Made by a program: the position numbers and the translations under genes
Notes under the pieces: model-generated
Seen by the model: the letters and a program-made list of their open reading frames with translations, nothing else
Databases searched by the model: none
Told to the model about the DNA's origin: nothing
In this document: positions 22,358 through 30,148 of the stretch, one piece after another
How the letters are laid out: every line of letters begins with the position of its first letter
Position numbering within the stretch: the first letter of the stretch is position 1
From: Deltaproteobacteria bacterium
Lineage (GTDB): Bacteria; Myxococcota_A; Polyangia; Polyangiales; Sandaracinaceae
NCBI GenBank assembly: GCA_017303575.1
Contig: JAFLCL010000005.1
Coordinates: 1 to 64,000 of the forward strand
Direction: 5' to 3'
Length of the DNA stretch: 64,000 nucleotides

Positions 22358-24967
22358 GTGATACGCACACGGGACGTGAGGACGTCACGCGCGCGCCTTG
22401 GGCAGCAACCTCGATCGGCGCTCGCGCTGTGCGTCGCGCTGCTCGGTCTGCTGCCGTCGGTGGGTGCCCACGCGCAGGACGCCGGGCCCGCCGATGCCGG
22501 CGTGCCTGTCGACGCGGGTGCGCCGCCTGCGGCGCCCGTGATGGTCCCGCCGCGCGTGCTCGATGCGCCTCCCGTCACGCTGCCCGAAGACGCCGAGCCG
22601 CTGGCGGAGGGGACGAGCGTCGAGCTGCTCCTCACCATCGCTGCCGATGGCACCGTGCGCGACGCAGCGCTGGTGGCGTCCGTGCGCGACGACGTCGACA
22701 CGCTCGTCCTCGACGCTGCCCGCGGGATGCGCTTCGAGCCTGCGACCCGTGATGGAACGCCGGTGCCTGCGCGCATCCGCTTCCGCTACGCGATCGCCAC
22801 CGCCGCGCCCGAGACGACTCAGACGGGCACTGGCACCGACACGGGCACTGGCACTGGCACTGGCACCGACACGGGCACTGGCACTGGCACCGACACGGGC
22901 ACTGGCACCGACACGGGCACTGGCACCGACACGGGCACTGGGACGACGACCGGGACCGACGCTGGGACCGGCACTGGCACCGAGACCGGCACCGAGGCCC
23001 CGCCCGTCGTGGATCCGGACGCGATCCCCGACGGGGAGCTCGCTGTGTTCGGCGCCCGCGCCACCGTCGATCGCCCCGAGCCCGGCGCTGCTTCGCGCAT
23101 CACCCTCACCGGCGCCGAGCTCAGCACCGTGCCCGGCACGTTCGGTGAGCCCCTGCGTGTCGTCGCCACGTTGCCCGGCGTCGTGCGCTCGCCGTTCGGC
23201 CTCGGCTTCTTCCTCGTACGTGGCGCCAACTTCCAGAACACCGGCTTCTTCGTCGACGGTTTCCCCGTCCCGATTCTCTATCACTTCGGCGCAGGCCCCG
23301 CGGTCATCTCGTCCCGTCTCGTCAACCGACTGCGCTTCTACCCGGGCGGTTATCCCACCTCACTGGGCCGTTATTCGGCAGGTGTCGTCGCGCTCGAGAC
23401 AGGCATTCCCGACGACGTGCGCTCGTTCCGCTTCGAGGCCGAGATCGACCTCCTCCGCGCGAGCGTGCTGGCGGTCATCCCGTTCGAGCGAGGCAACGTC
23501 TCCATCGCCTTCCGACGCAGCTACTACGAGCTGCTCGTCCCGCTCTTCGTCCAAGGCCTCCAGGTCGCCTACACCGACTACCAGATCCGCGGCGAGTACC
23601 GTATCGACGATCACCTCTCCGTCTCGCTCTTCGCGTTCGGCTCGGACGACCTGCTCGATCAGAGCGGCGCGCTCATGGGCGGTGCCACGAGCGACGGCTC
23701 GAACACGCGCATCAACTACAACTTCCAGCGCGCGATCGCGCGCATCGACTGGCGTCTCGGGCCGGACTCCTTCATCCGCCTCTCGGGCGCGCTCGGCCGC
23801 AACGGCACCTCGTTCGGGTCGCGCACCGCCGGACAAGCACAGCAGCAGTTCGATCTCGAGTCGTTCGAGCTGGGCCTGCGCCTGGACGCGTCGATTCCCG
23901 TCTCGCCTTGGCTGCGCACGAACTTCGGCATCGACGCGGCGGCGAACGCGTTTGGCATCGCGATCACCGCGCCCTCGCCGTCGGGCCTCGGCGAGTACCC
24001 GCGTCCGGTGTTCGATCCGCAGCTCTTCCAGCTCAACGCGCGCGTCGCGCGCTCCACGCCCGCGATCTACGGCGAGGCGATCCTCGACTTCCATCCCGTC
24101 GAGATCTCGCTCGGCACACGCCTCGAGCTCCTTCGCTGGGGAACGCTCACCGACGTCGCGCCCGATCCCCGCATGGTCACGCGCTGGACGATCATCCCCG
24201 AGGTCACGGTCAAGGCCGCGACGGGCCTCTTCACCCAGCCGCCCTCGGCGTTCCAGACCATCTCGCAGGGTGGCAATCCGAACCTCGGTCCGCAGCGCGC
24301 GTGGCAGACGTCGGCGGGCGTCGAGGCAGACCTCCCGGAGGACATCGACGTCGAGGTCAATGGCTTCTACAGCCACATGTTCGACATCGCTCGCTTCTCC
24401 CAGCAGATCGTGATGGGCGCCGATGGTCAGCCTCGGCGCGAGTTCTTCCGGAACGACCAAGAGGGCCGGGCGTACGGCCTCGAGGTGCTGATTCGCCGTC
24501 CCGTAGAGCAGGGATTCTACGGCTGGATCTCGTACACCCTCTCCCGCTCCGAGCGCCTCAATCCGGGCGGTGAATGGCGTCCGTTCACCTACGATCAGAC
24601 GCACGTGCTGAACCTCGCGGCGAGCTACGCGTTCGATGGTTGGCGCTTCGGCGCCACGTTCCAGCTGGCCACCGGTCGGCCCACGTCGACCCCCACCGAT
24701 CCCGTCTACGACGCCGACGAGAACGCCTACAGCGCCACCTTCGCGGACACAGGTGCACGTCTGCCTCTCTACCACCAGCTGAACGTCCGCATCGACCGCG
24801 ACTTCGATCTCGACTTCGTGACTGGCACCCTCTACCTGGACGTCCTCAACGTCTACTACGGCCAGAACTCCGAAGGGCTCGTCTACCAGTACGACTACGC
24901 GCGCAGCGTGCCGATTCCCGGCCTCCCCATCCTCGGTACGATCGGCATCCGGGCGATCTTCGAATGA
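22358..24967 (+). CDS. TonB-dependent outer-membrane receptor with N-terminal TonB-like domain and TGTGTD repeat
   Basis: About 869 residues from GTG 22358 (GTG 22376 is an equally plausible start). The signal peptide ends near AHAQ. Residues about 70-145 resemble the C-terminal domain of TonB (SVELLLTIAADGTVRDAALV, LDAARGMRFEPATRDGTPV, RIRFRYAI). Residues about 155-215 are a Thr/Gly/Asp repeat. The plug domain follows (FGEPLRVVATLPGVVRSPFG, FLVRGANFQNTGFFVDGFPV) and then a beta-barrel ending in an aromatic-type terminus, GTIGIRAIFE. It would import a scarce ligand across the outer membrane; the substrate is unknown. A TonB-like domain on a receptor is unusual and may contact partners in the periplasm. 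It is translationally coupled (ATGA) to the next lipoprotein. Confidence 0.85.
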   Translation: MIRTRDVRTSRARLGQQPRSALALCVALLGLLPSVGAHAQDAGPADAGVPVDAGAPPAAPVMVPPRVLDAPPVTLPEDAEPLAEGTSVELLLTIAADGTVRDAALVASVRDDVDTLVLDAARGMRFEPATRDGTPVPARIRFRYAIATAAPETTQTGTGTDTGTGTGTGTDTGTGTGTDTGTGTDTGTGTDTGTGTTTGTDAGTGTGTETGTEAPPVVDPDAIPDGELAVFGARATVDRPEPGAASRITLTGAELSTVPGTFGEPLRVVATLPGVVRSPFGLGFFLVRGANFQNTGFFVDGFPVPILYHFGAGPAVISSRLVNRLRFYPGGYPTSLGRYSAGVVALETGIPDDVRSFRFEAEIDLLRASVLAVIPFERGNVSIAFRRSYYELLVPLFVQGLQVAYTDYQIRGEYRIDDHLSVSLFAFGSDDLLDQSGALMGGATSDGSNTRINYNFQRAIARIDWRLGPDSFIRLSGALGRNGTSFGSRTAGQAQQQFDLESFELGLRLDASIPVSPWLRTNFGIDAAANAFGIAITAPSPSGLGEYPRPVFDPQLFQLNARVARSTPAIYGEAILDFHPVEISLGTRLELLRWGTLTDVAPDPRMVTRWTIIPEVTVKAATGLFTQPPSAFQTISQGGNPNLGPQRAWQTSAGVEADLPEDIDVEVNGFYSHMFDIARFSQQIVMGADGQPRREFFRNDQEGRAYGLEVLIRRPVEQGFYGWISYTLSRSERLNPGGEWRPFTYDQTHVLNLAASYAFDGWRFGATFQLATGRPTSTPTDPVYDADENAYSATFADTGARLPLYHQLNVRIDRDFDLDFVTGTLYLDVLNVYYGQNSEGLVYQYDYARSVPIPGLPILGTIGIRAIFE
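22823..22992 (+). repeat. tandem GC-rich repeat encoding TGTGTD units
   Basis: Built from 6-base GGCACT and GGCACC steps with interspersed GACACG, mostly as an 18-base unit. It encodes Thr-Gly-Thr-Gly-Thr-Asp stretches between the TonB-like domain and the plug. Such arrays can change length by slippage or recombination without breaking the frame, since the units are multiples of 3. Confidence 0.85.
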
Positions 24968-25984: not shown

Positions 25985-26641
25985 ATGCTGTACCCCCTTC
26001 TACGCCTCTCACTCTCGTGTTCTCTGCTCGCGAGCCTGGGTGCTTGTGACGAGTCGAGGCCGCCGCCCGGAGAGACCGACGCGGCGGTCGTCGTCGATCC
26101 GCCCGATGCCTACGTCGTCCCGACGGACGACGCGTACGTCGGACCGCCCGATGCGTTCGATCCGGGCGCAGGCGAGACCGGTCGCATGATCGGCATGACG
26201 GAGGCGCACAACCGCTTTCGCGCGATGGCCGACACCGACGTGCCGATTCCCGCGCTCGTCTGGGACACCGACCTGGCGGCCGTCGCGCAAGCTTACTCGG
26301 AGGAGCTCGCGAGGAGCGGCTGCGGGCTCACCCACTCGAGCAATGGCTATGGCGAGAACCTCTACTGGCAACGGGGCCTGAGCCCGGACGCGGCAGAGGT
26401 CGTCGCGGGCTGGCACGCAGAGATCGCCTGCTACGACTTCGGCACGTTCATGGGCAGCGACTCCTGCGACATGGCGTGTACCTCGGCCATGAACGCGAGC
26501 GGCTGCGGCCACTACACACAGGTCGTCTGGCGCACCACGCGCCGCCTCGGCTGCGGCGTGGCCACCTGCTCGAGCGGCGCCGAGATCTGGACCTGCAACT
26601 ACGACCCTCCGGGCAACTACCTCGGTCGCGAGCCCTACTGA
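25985..26641 (+). CDS. CAP-domain (SCP/PR1) secreted lipoprotein
   Basis: A 218-residue protein with a signal peptide and lipobox-like SLGAC at about residue 21, then an Asp/Pro-rich linker. The CAP domain covers about 65-218: MTEAHNRFRAMAD with the first conserved His, LAAVAQAYSEELA, HSSNGYGENLYWQ with the second, GCGHYTQVVWRTTRRLGCG and WTCNYDPPGNYLG. The His/Glu cavity residues are retained. CAP proteins in bacteria are extracellular, with lipid-binding, protease or unknown roles. It has a GAGGAGAC ribosome site and lies 25 bases after the preceding lipoprotein, probably in one transcript. Confidence 0.9.
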   Translation: MLYPLLRLSLSCSLLASLGACDESRPPPGETDAAVVVDPPDAYVVPTDDAYVGPPDAFDPGAGETGRMIGMTEAHNRFRAMADTDVPIPALVWDTDLAAVAQAYSEELARSGCGLTHSSNGYGENLYWQRGLSPDAAEVVAGWHAEIACYDFGTFMGSDSCDMACTSAMNASGCGHYTQVVWRTTRRLGCGVATCSSGAEIWTCNYDPPGNYLGREPY

Positions 26642-26659
26642 CGACGCTCGCGCCGCGCG

Positions 26660-27727
26660 TCAGCGGGTGAGGATCAGGGCGGCGACGACACACACGAACG
26701 CGGGCGCCATGGCGACGCGCGCACCGAAGTCGACCTTCGTCGCGAGCTCTTGGCGTCGGTGGCGCACGAAGAACCCGATCGCGCACGACTCCACGAGCGC
26801 GAGGAAGATGAACAAGATCCCCGCGAGGTGGACCTTGTCGGACAGCGTCATGTACGGAATGTCCGGCAGGTTGTTGGCGACGACCGAGTGCGAGGTCACC
26901 GCGCCGAACATGCCCGCGACGCCGACGCCCACGCGCGCGTCGAGCACGTCGGGATGCATGAAGAACCCGAGGAACGCGATGAAGACCGAGATGAACAGCG
27001 TGAGGAACGTCTTGAAGAACGTGGTCGAGACGTCGTGGTGGAGGCGGATCCTCATGCGGAACCGGGGAAACGTACTGACCTCCTCGGGGTCGACGCCCGG
27101 CATGCCGAAGTTCGTCGCATAGCGCGTCTCGACGACGTCGAAGGTCGGTCGATCCACCAGCCAGCCGGAGATCGGAGGGCTCTCGACGTGGCGCACCGAG
27201 TCCTCGTCCACAGCGAAGAGCACGCTCGCGCTGCCCTCCTCCGCGTGCTCGAGCGCGAGCATGATCTCGTGCTCGTCGAACGGGAACGCATGGAAGTCCG
27301 TGTCGACGAGCACACGCGCGCTCGACCGATAATAGGCATAACGCTCGCCGTCCTCTTCCTGGAGGTACTCGCTCTCTCGTGAGAGCAGCGTGCCGTTCAT
27401 CACCTCGTAAGCCGTACCGTCCGCCGGGCCCCGCCAGCGCGACCACACGTAGTAGGTCAGGGTCGCTGTGCCGGTGCGCATGTCGAGATCCGAGACGCGG
27501 AGCGGGAAGACGCCGAAGTAGATCGTCGTCGGTGCGCTCGGCGCGTCCTCGGTAGCCTCGGGACCTTCCGTCGTCTCCTCGGCAGCAGGCGCGGTCACAC
27601 CTGCGTCGACGTCGAGCACCGCCGCACCTGCGTCGTCGGTCTCTTGCGCGCGCACCACGGAAGGACGCACCGCCAGAGGCGCACAGAGCACCAGACAGGA
27701 CGAGAGCACGAGACCGAGGCTCGACAC
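26660..27727 (-). CDS. Cys-loop-type (pentameric ligand-gated channel) homologue
   Basis: A 355-residue protein starting at GTG with the signal MSSLGLVLSSCLVLCAPLAV ending near VVRAQ. A ligand-binding beta-sandwich covers about 65-225: FPLRVSDLDMRTGTATLTYY, VWSRWRGPADGT and the family hallmark FHAFPFDEHEIMLALEHAE. It is followed by a four-helix membrane domain (FKTFLTLFISVFIAFLGFFM; VGVGVAGMFGAVTSHSVV; KVHLAGILFIFLALVESCAI; MAPAFVCVVAALILT). This is the order of prokaryotic pentameric ligand-gated channels such as GLIC and ELIC, though M2 is unusual (glycine-rich, with DARVGVG before it), so gating or conduction cannot be assumed. It is the last gene of the leftward acyl-CoA dehydrogenase cluster. 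Confidence 0.75.
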   Translation of the reverse strand: MSSLGLVLSSCLVLCAPLAVRPSVVRAQETDDAGAAVLDVDAGVTAPAAEETTEGPEATEDAPSAPTTIYFGVFPLRVSDLDMRTGTATLTYYVWSRWRGPADGTAYEVMNGTLLSRESEYLQEEDGERYAYYRSSARVLVDTDFHAFPFDEHEIMLALEHAEEGSASVLFAVDEDSVRHVESPPISGWLVDRPTFDVVETRYATNFGMPGVDPEEVSTFPRFRMRIRLHHDVSTTFFKTFLTLFISVFIAFLGFFMHPDVLDARVGVGVAGMFGAVTSHSVVANNLPDIPYMTLSDKVHLAGILFIFLALVESCAIGFFVRHRRQELATKVDFGARVAMAPAFVCVVAALILTR

Positions 27728-27795
27728 GCGTCGGCATCGGGGACCGACGAATGCCCGGCCAGCTCTCGTCCCTCCCGCCTCTCGATACGTTCGGC

Positions 27796-28956
27796 TCAGG
27801 CGCCCTCGAAGCCCGGCAGGCTCGCGTAGCGGCTCAGGTGGTGCTCTTCGTCGCCGAAGAGCGCGTTCAAGACGCTCATGCGCTTGAAGTAGAGACCAAC
27901 GTCGTGCTCGTCGGTGATGCCGATTCCGCCGTGCAGCTGGATGGCGCTCTCGACGACGCGCTTGCCGCCGGCCGCGAGCTGCGCCTTGGCGATCGACACC
28001 GCGCGACGTCGCTCGTTCACGTCGGAGTCGTCTGCCTTCATGCCCGCAAGCATGGCGGTGGACTTGAGCAGCTCCGTCTCGACGAACATGTCGACGGCGC
28101 GGTGCTGGAGCGCCTGGAACGAGCCGATCGCGACGTTGAATTGCTTGCGGACCTGGAGGTAATTGACCGTCATCCAGAGCACGGTGCTGGCGATGCCATG
28201 CCCCTCTGCGCAGGCGCCGGCCGCCGCGAGATCCAGCGCGTGCTCGATCGCAGGCAGACCCGTGCCCTCGGTGCCGAGGAGATCCTCGCTGCCGAGCACC
28301 ACGTTCGAGAGGCGCACGCGCGCCGCACGCTGACCGTCCATCGTCTTGGCGCTCTCGATCGCGACGCCCTTGGCGTTGCTGGGCACGGAGAACAGCGAGA
28401 TGCCCGCCTCGGTCCTCGCCGACACGATCAACGTCTCTGCGGCATGACCGTTGAGGGCCCAGACCTTCTCGCCGGAGAGGAGCCAAGTGCCACCCTCCTT
28501 CTTGGCCGTCGTCGAGACGTGGCCCGCGTCGTAGCGCCCGTCCTTCTCGGCCCACGCGAGCGCGAGGCTCGTCTTGCCCTCGATCATCGGGCCGAGGATC
28601 TTCTTCTGCTGCTCGACCGACGCACCCTTCAGCACCGCGCCGCCCGCCAGCACGACGGACGCCAGAATCGGCTCGGGCACGAGCGTCTTGCCCAGCTCTT
28701 CGAGCACGAGTGTCATGTCGAAGAACGAGAGGCCGAGACCGCCGACGCTCTCCGGATAGAAGAGCCCGAGCCAGCCGAGGTCGGCCATCTGCTTCCACAC
28801 GCTCGGCTCCCAGCACCGATCGTGACTGACCACCTCGCCGCCGTGGCCGCCGCCGTGCGATCGCAGCTTGCGGAAGCGAGTGACGGGCGAGCTCTTGGTG
28901 AACTGCGCCGCGGAGTCCTTGAGGAGCTTCTGATCGTCGTTCAGCTCGAAATCCAT
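27796..28956 (-). CDS. acyl-CoA dehydrogenase family protein (second of pair)
   Basis: A 386-residue flavoprotein. The N-terminal helical domain starts MDFELNDDQKLLKDSAAQFT. FAD and substrate loops are GWLGLFYPESVGGLGL, TSLALAWAEKDGR and WLLSGEKVWALNGHAAETL, and the C-terminal helical domain has VRKQFNVAIGSFQALQHRAVD and SAIQLHGGIGITDEHDVGLY. The usual catalytic glutamate position falls in the diverged GIGITDEHD stretch, so the substrate class is unclear. It pairs with the gene 10 bases upstream; such pairs often form heteromeric acyl-CoA dehydrogenases for bulky or steroid-like CoA esters. Confidence 0.88.
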   Translation of the reverse strand: MDFELNDDQKLLKDSAAQFTKSSPVTRFRKLRSHGGGHGGEVVSHDRCWEPSVWKQMADLGWLGLFYPESVGGLGLSFFDMTLVLEELGKTLVPEPILASVVLAGGAVLKGASVEQQKKILGPMIEGKTSLALAWAEKDGRYDAGHVSTTAKKEGGTWLLSGEKVWALNGHAAETLIVSARTEAGISLFSVPSNAKGVAIESAKTMDGQRAARVRLSNVVLGSEDLLGTEGTGLPAIEHALDLAAAGACAEGHGIASTVLWMTVNYLQVRKQFNVAIGSFQALQHRAVDMFVETELLKSTAMLAGMKADDSDVNERRRAVSIAKAQLAAGGKRVVESAIQLHGGIGITDEHDVGLYFKRMSVLNALFGDEEHHLSRYASLPGFEGA

Positions 28957-28966
28957 GTCTGTCTCC

Positions 28967-30148
28967 TCAACCCGGCAATCCCAAGATCATTTTCGCGATG
29001 ACGTTGCGCTGGATCTCGTTCGATCCGCCGTAGATCGTCGTCGCACGGAGGTAGTTGAAGCTCGAGGCGACCCACTGCTCGCCCGCGGGGACGATGTCGG
29101 TCTCGTTGAACCACGCGAGCGAATTCTGCCCCATGACCTCCATCGCGAGCTCGAGGCACTGCTGCTGGATCTCGGAGCCGCGGATCTTGAGGATCGAGCT
29201 CTCGGGCCCTGGCGCGTGACCGAGCTGGGCGCCGGCGAGCGCGCGGTAGTTCTGCACGCGCAGCGCCTCGAGCTTGATCTCGAGGCGCGCGATCTTCGTG
29301 CGGAAGCTGCCGTCCTCGAGGAGCGGCTTACCATTCAGGATCGTGTGGCTCGCGATGCGCTTCACGCGAAGGAGCGCGCGCGTCGACTGCCCGACGGCGC
29401 CGATCATCGTGCGCTCGTGACCGAGCAGCGCCTTGGCCATGCCCCAGCCGCCGTTGACCGGACCGACGACGTTCTCCTTCGGGACGACAGCGTTCTCGAA
29501 CCAGGTGTCGCAGAACGCCGGCGTGTGACCGGTGGTCAGCATCGGCACCGCGCGCACACCCGGCGTCTTCATGTCGATCAGCAGGAACGAGATGCCCGCC
29601 TGCTTCTTCGCGCTCGAGTCGGTGCGCACGAGGCAGAAGATCCAGTCCGCGTACTGCGCGTACGTCGTCCAGGTCTTCTGTCCGTTCACGACGAAGTTCC
29701 CGTTGCCGTCGTCGACCGCTGTCGTCCGCAGCGACGCGAGATCGGAGCCGGCGTCGGGCTCGGAATAGCCCTGACACCACTTCTCTTCACCGCTGAGGAT
29801 CTTCGGCAGGAAGCGCTGCTTCTGCGCGTCGTTGCCGAACTGGATGATCAGCGGGCCGACCATCGACAAGCCGAAGGGCGACAGCAGCGGGGTGCCGCTC
29901 TTCTCGAGCTCCTCTCCGAAGAGGAAGCGCTGCGCCGCGTCCCAGCCGGGACCGCCGAGCTCCTTCGGCCAGTGCGGCGCCACCCAGCCCTTTCGGTAGA
30001 GGACCTTGTGCCAGTCCATCACCTCGTCCATCTCGAAGTGACCATCGACCTCGGCCTTGGCCTTGATGTGCGGGGGCACTTCCGTCTTGAGGAATTCGCG
30101 CACCTCTCGGCGGAACGCCTCCTGCTCGGGCGTGAACGACAGATCCAT
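28967..30148 (-). CDS. acyl-CoA dehydrogenase family protein (first of pair)
   Basis: A 393-residue flavoprotein starting MDLSFTPEQEAFRREVREFL, with a GAGGACGAGGAG ribosome region. Motifs: APHWPKELGGPGWDAAQR, WCQGYSEPDAGSDLASL (FAD/acyl binding), VVNGQKTWTTYAQYADW, GHERTMIGAVGQSTRALL and, near the end, YGGSNEIQRNVIAKMILGLP, typical of the long-chain/FadE-like branch. It oxidises an acyl-CoA to the trans-2-enoyl form and passes electrons to ETF. It heads the pair with the next gene and follows the FHA-type activator by 40 bases. Confidence 0.92.
   Translation of the reverse strand: MDLSFTPEQEAFRREVREFLKTEVPPHIKAKAEVDGHFEMDEVMDWHKVLYRKGWVAPHWPKELGGPGWDAAQRFLFGEELEKSGTPLLSPFGLSMVGPLIIQFGNDAQKQRFLPKILSGEEKWCQGYSEPDAGSDLASLRTTAVDDGNGNFVVNGQKTWTTYAQYADWIFCLVRTDSSAKKQAGISFLLIDMKTPGVRAVPMLTTGHTPAFCDTWFENAVVPKENVVGPVNGGWGMAKALLGHERTMIGAVGQSTRALLRVKRIASHTILNGKPLLEDGSFRTKIARLEIKLEALRVQNYRALAGAQLGHAPGPESSILKIRGSEIQQQCLELAMEVMGQNSLAWFNETDIVPAGEQWVASSFNYLRATTIYGGSNEIQRNVIAKMILGLPG

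Follow-up and report, generated by a model that had tools for sequence, protein, structure and literature searches.

The window analysed here, a stretch of 64,000 nucleotides, carries on its minus strand at 26660..27727 a gene for a divergent channel protein. The kind of channel is known; the variant to which the protein belongs is widespread but poorly annotated. The protein belongs to the pentameric ligand-gated channel (pLGIC), or Pro-loop receptor, superfamily; both fold and superfamily are settled by sequence matches in the PDB, a family profile, a structure model, and structure searches whose best 50 matches were all pLGICs. We assign a probability of roughly 0.8 to the fuller reading, in which the protein is one subunit of a periplasm-facing pentameric ligand-gated channel with a Pro loop that lacks cysteines. 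Work on bacterial pLGICs has dealt with a small number of them (GLIC, ELIC, DeCLIC, and sTeLIC), which serve as models for nervous-system drug targets.

The reading frame runs for 355 codons from a GTG without an internal stop. Its GC3 of 0.876 lies within the range of the neighbouring genes (0.86 to 0.94), so we take it to be a real coding gene. The exact start is uncertain, since no in-frame start was found within 400 bp upstream of the GTG and neither a ribosome-binding site nor a charged N-region was seen there by eye. A promoter and terminator scan was uninformative, and a search of the window against Rfam gave no match.

Read from its letters, the protein opens with a probable signal peptide (MSSLGLVLSSCLVLCAPLAVRPSVVRAQ; 27644..27727, exact start uncertain) and a 38-residue acidic linker, rich in Ala, Glu, and Thr and presumably disordered (27530..27643). 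A compact extracellular beta-sandwich of the ligand-binding type follows in the alignment and the model (27038..27529) and includes the Pro loop F-P-F-D (27275..27286). The alignment places the pre-M1 position, R192 in GLIC, at 27035..27037, where the window protein has His. The model then gives four transmembrane helices, M1 (26960..27031), the pore-lining M2 (26873..26944), M3 (26762..26845), and M4 (26669..26752), all on the minus strand. M2 reads D-A-R-V-G-V-G-V-A-G-M-F-G, which aligns as Asp -2', Ala -1', Arg 0', Gly 2', Ala 6', and Phe 9', with Thr at 13' and a further His at 15'. The loop between M2 and M3 is NNLPDIPYMT.

Sequence searches of the PDB matched a GLIC-GlyR chimera best (1.8e-16, residues 126-345), followed by GABA-A chimeras (1e-13 to 1e-14) and GLIC (1e-10). 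A family profile (A1) built from 22 relatives of the window protein matched GLIC over the full domain at about 1e-35. We built an AlphaFold (AF2) model of the 288-residue core from an alignment with 77 relatives, and obtained a mean pLDDT of 96 and a pTM of 0.87. It consists of a beta-sandwich with strands at core residues 2-164, followed by long helices at 167-190, 196-219, 229-256, and 260-287. The frame, FPFD motif, sandwich, and four helices described by the first-pass annotation are thus all present, and its assignment to the pLGIC relatives holds. When the model was searched with Foldseek and VIA-align, all 1000 top chains had Z of 8 or more, and the best 50 of these 1000, where the first-pass annotation had allowed that a different sensor family might appear, were all pLGICs (Z 23.0-24.1, 2.0-2.6 Å, 267-279 residues). 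The top match was GluCl (Z 24.1, 274 of 288 residues, 2.0 Å), with GABA-A beta3, the glycine receptor, and GLIC next at Z 23-24. Family libraries scored the protein below their cut-offs. NCBIfam LGIC_1 gave 49 of 500 bits (5.6e-13) and TIGR00860 LIC 44 of 280 bits (1.5e-11), each below the curated cut-off; Pfam Neur_chan_memb gave 17.4 of 28.1 bits, below gathering, and Neur_chan_LBD was not reported for this protein.

The positions that define the superfamily point the same way. In Table 1 of PMC4795631, the Pro of [F/Y]PxD, a motif at the tip of the beta6-beta7 loop, is the only absolutely conserved residue (100%), followed by the pre-M1 Arg (94%), which pairs with the Pro-loop Asp, the Pro of the M2-M3 loop (88%), and the M1 Pro (77%). 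The window protein has five of the seven listed residues: the Phe, Pro, and Asp of FPxD, the M2-M3 Pro, and the beta9 Trp, which aligns with GLIC W160. The pre-M1 Arg is replaced by His and the M1 Pro by Thr, a residue common at this place in the branch (Thr in 20 of 128 relatives, Gly in 31 of 128). Both replacements count against our preferred explanation, but superfamily membership stands because only the Pro-loop proline is absolutely conserved in that table. From the end of the signal peptide up to M3 the sequence is free of cysteine, so the protein strictly speaking falls outside the Cys-loop receptors, and the earlier use of that term was a misnomer. It is of the Cys-less Pro-loop kind, the form in which bacterial members of the superfamily have been described (PMC549065, PMC4795631).

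From these features we infer a mechanism. Five copies would assemble, most likely as a homomer, in the inner membrane, and a small solute or a proton would bind at the interfaces of the extracellular sandwiches. The signal would then reach the M2 helices by way of three elements: the FPFD of the Pro loop, the linker before M1, and the NLP of the M2-M3 loop. The pore would open from a closed state presumably formed by a ring of Phe 9', with its inner mouth lined by Asp -2'.

Comparison with known channels shows where the window protein departs from them. It resembles GLIC in homology over the whole domain (Z ~23 in the structural comparison), the Cys-less Pro loop, the beta9 Trp, the M2-M3 sequence NLPxxPYMT, a short M3-M4 loop, and the acid at -2'. 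Between beta2 and beta5 it has about 19 residues fewer than GLIC, whose IWIPE loop-A segment in this stretch has no counterpart in the alignment. It also has a longer loop C, lacks the M1 Pro, and carries His for the pre-M1 Arg, Arg for Asn at 0', and Phe for Ile at 9'. The animal Cys-loop receptors (GluCl, GABA-A beta3, and the glycine receptor) share its fold at Z 23-24 over 267-279 residues, and its M2 begins similarly to the one in the glycine receptor. Unlike them, it has no Cys-loop cysteines and no long cytoplasmic M3-M4 loop, and its extracellular domain is shorter.

The shortened extracellular domain is shared by a branch of relatives that we call compact. Counted in the alignment up to the Pro-loop proline, the domain has 82 residues in the window protein, 82-96 in most relatives, and 103 in GLIC. 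The branch is further marked by a beta2 Trp (97%), a beta7 Glu (95%), a loop-C Gly (99%), and Arg 0' (94%), with D-P-R, D-A-R, or E-G-R before M2. Gly 2' (89 of 128 aligned relatives) and Phe 9' (75 of 128) are the commonest residues at their positions. M2 of the window protein is indeed glycine-rich, as first described, but given these frequencies it is not unusual for its branch. Together with members from Azospirillum, Hyphomicrobium, Defluviimonas, Planctomycetota, Acidobacteriota, Myxococcota, and others, the window protein has the beta2 W-x-x-W, the D-[PA]-R before M2, Gly 2', and Phe 9'. It is mostly 20-33% identical to them and differs in its pre-M1 His and in lacking both the Asp of the loop-C GD motif and the beta2 Phe.

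This branch is widespread and mostly unannotated. Searching 379 sampled genomes of the phylum with the family profile at 1e-10 or better gave a pLGIC match in 107 (28%), and in 73 of the 237 good-quality genomes. A scan of named genomes with the alignment of relatives as query added members in Pseudomonadota, Planctomycetota, Acidobacteriota, Verrucomicrobiota, Nitrospirota, Bacteroidota, Armatimonadota, and other phyla; the single window protein as query gave no matches in the named genomes or in viral contigs. The family can therefore not be called sparse in bacteria, at least here. No phage match to the channel was found, and plasmid matches were confined to Azospirillum (29% identity), where the annotated ones are named hypothetical protein. 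At a threshold of 0.001, the Pfam membrane domain matched 21 of the 78 alignment rows and the ligand-binding domain 20 of 78. We found no description of the branch in the open-access papers searched. Since it does without the loop-A segment of GLIC, it lends itself to testing which role the loop-A strands have.

The pore sequence bears on what such a channel would conduct. GLIC has Glu at -2' and is cation-selective. The window protein has Asp there, and 94 of 128 aligned relatives have Asp or Glu; with an acid in the place of the GLIC Glu, our guess by analogy is that cation flow is somewhat likelier than anion flow. A chloride channel is possible, though on balance doubtful. The A-R-V-G-x-G that starts M2 resembles the glycine receptor, and in the PDB alignment positions -1' to 4' equal those of GLRA1 save for one V/L exchange. 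The best PDB match, the GLIC chimera with the glycine receptor membrane domain, scores 63 bits vs 42-44 for GLIC itself. In addition, Ala -1' with Arg 0' reads as anion-type under the A-[RK] rule of PMC549065, which is a point against our preferred explanation. What stands against chloride is the ring of Asp at -2', in the place of the Pro of anion channels. With a start of M2 like that of the glycine receptor and an acid at -2', the protein would make a test of selectivity.

The pre-M1 His is its unusual feature. Arg fills this position in 124 of 127 aligned relatives, and His occurs in the window protein and in one other of the 127. The closest relative also has His; it is a protein of Candidatus Zipacnadum vermilionense in the Armatimonadota (L092:5815-6867), which is 34% identical without gaps over 289 residues and, unlike the window protein, keeps the M1 Pro. 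Since the His is common to proteins from two phyla, a sequencing error is unlikely. The two form a clade with support of 99/97 in the tree with wider sampling; a placement beside a Polyangia clade in the first tree (weak, at 81/83) was dropped when that sampling moved the protein to its Armatimonadota relative. The window protein sits on a long branch, no homologue exceeds 34% identity, and no orthologue above 33% was found in the family (10 genomes), order (184), class (241), or phylum (379). The clade suggests horizontal transfer on at least one side, a reading tempered by the long branch.

Because Arg at this position pairs with the Pro-loop Asp, the His of these two proteins may perhaps make coupling pH-dependent. 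On this basis the protein can be read as a GLIC-like channel that is gated by protons or modulated by pH, its coupling salt bridge having become titratable; we consider this reading tentative and rather unlikely. In its favour, the His is unlikely to be a sequencing error of one genome, M2 holds a further His at 15', and gating by protons is known for GLIC, which among the solved bacterial relatives matches the profile best. However, proton sensing in GLIC involves several residues and not the pre-M1 position. The His may also simply keep a hydrogen bond at all pH values. The window protein and its Armatimonadota relative provide a test of whether the pre-M1 arginine is replaceable.

A more ambitious proposal joins these observations: the compact branch would be a separate physiological class with a minimal ligand-binding domain and its own Gly/Phe pore, and the window channel would come from a small sub-lineage, spread across phyla, whose pre-M1 His renders the coupling of binding to gate itself pH-dependent. 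We think it improbable that both parts hold.

The same divergence could mark a degenerating pLGIC copy, without channel function and on its way out of the genome. The long branch, the lost pre-M1 Arg, the absence of the gene from the sister species, and the uncertain start all fit such decay. The frame is intact over its 355 codons with a strong GC3 bias, though, every helix and strand is modelled at high confidence, and the pre-M1 His is common to a relative from another phylum. We therefore regard decay as quite improbable.

The preferred reading, a ligand-gated channel subunit, gains no clue to its ligand from the neighbourhood. The gene lies 68 bp behind a co-directional pair of acyl-CoA dehydrogenase genes, ACAD2 (27796..28956, minus strand) and ACAD1 (28967..30145, minus strand), and faces a convergent gene for a lipoprotein-like protein with a CAP (SCP/PR1) domain (25985..26641, plus strand). 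These neighbours were identified by Pfam and synteny, and the dehydrogenases are not part of the channel system. In the other genome of the genus, the genes for HAD, VanZ, a TonB-type protein, a lipoprotein, CAP, ACAD2, ACAD1, a sigma54 regulator, RPE, and a kinase keep the same order at ~54-94% identity. The channel is absent from this sister species, in which the ends of CAP and ACAD2 are 133 bp apart. The two genomes are homologous up to the CAP stop codon and again from the end of ACAD2 onward, leaving 26642-27795 of the window as a clean presence/absence difference of ~1.1 kb between convergent genes. The 133-bp gap contains a strong 11-bp inverted repeat (GACGGCCGCGC...GCGCGGCCGTC) that is missing there in the window, and the channel gene shows no evident mobile-element repeats at its borders. 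The two genomes are equally compatible with a gain of the gene in the window genome and with a loss in the sister.

The relatives show no constant neighbours either. Across 101 flanking genes, no Pfam family recurs more than three times and no recurrent neighbour emerged. The gene of the Armatimonadota relative is flanked by genes for a GFO/IDH/MocA oxidoreductase and a GH1 glycosidase, with no acyl-CoA dehydrogenase adjoining. Within the family, the ACAD pair is present in eight of ten genomes (the window's and seven others) and pLGIC matches in three of ten.

The first-pass annotation had correctly placed the gene beside the acyl-CoA dehydrogenases; the lipid or acid ligand that it drew from this context finds no backing, and the fatty-acid link was rejected on the family synteny and the neighbours of the relatives. 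A channel that senses a fatty acid, an acyl-CoA, or a related acid and works with the adjoining dehydrogenases is very improbable, even though co-transcription across 68 bp is possible and PMC10859675 describes modulation of GLIC by short-chain mono-carboxylates such as butyrate and crotonate, because the sister keeps all ten flanking genes without the channel, the dehydrogenase pair is found in more genomes of the family than pLGIC matches are, and the Armatimonadota gene has other neighbours. The position beside fatty-acid genes is a local accident.

Among prokaryotic homologues, Tasneem et al. (PMC549065) reported some fused at the N-terminus to PBP-I or MCP-N/Cache domains and others with PBP-II or Cache genes next to them, and proposed that they act as chemotactic receptors. 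The window protein shares with their bacterial ART-LGICs the superfamily and a simple extracellular domain with four helices, and differs in that neither its own frame nor an adjacent gene carries a periplasmic binding or Cache domain.

Elsewhere in the window, the frame at 22358-24967 (plus strand) joins in 869 aa a TonB_C domain, a long Thr-Gly-Thr-Asp repeat linker, and an apparent TonB-dependent receptor barrel, so that a domain of the transducer type seems to be fused to a receptor.

The source genome has three pLGICs: besides the window gene, contig C1 carries a paralogue and contig C493 a pLGIC of more typical form. The paralogue (L003, C1:66915-68006) is a second compact pLGIC of the F-E-G-R type and is present in both genomes of the genus (L007 in the other); it looks vertically inherited, unlike the window copy. 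The typical pLGIC, with a Pfam Neur_chan_LBD, overlaps the gene of a dCache_3 membrane protein by 4 bases (L001:1087-3542), an arrangement like the Cache-channel operon of Rhodopseudomonas (PMC549065).

Two further arrangements appeared among the relatives. In eight loci (L015, L020, L022, L023, L024, L029, L031, and L036), from families f3 and f5 of the window's order, a pLGIC continues in frame after M4 into a C-terminal SBP_bac_5 (DppA-like solute-binding) domain. The fused frames span 817-1013 aa, match the Pfam SBP_bac_5 domain at E values of 1e-30 to 1e-43, and form one clade with support of 100/100. The C-terminal placement fits the topology, as the C-terminus of a pLGIC is periplasmic, and it looks new next to the N-terminal PBP-I and Cache fusions of PMC549065; we found no report of such a C-terminal SBP fusion in the open-access papers searched. 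Judged by its domains, such a fusion could be a solute- or oligopeptide-sensing channel, and these proteins may deserve more attention than the window gene. The other arrangement is two different pLGIC genes side by side (L009/L057, L010/L047, L012/L079, L051, L098, L088, L089, and L095), found in Myxococcota, Alpha- and Gammaproteobacteria, and Bacteroidota. In the Myxococcota pairs each partner belongs to a different clade, a pattern suggestive of heteromeric channels. In three of the pairs (L088, L089, and L095), one partner carries an N-terminal dCache/PDC sensor domain.
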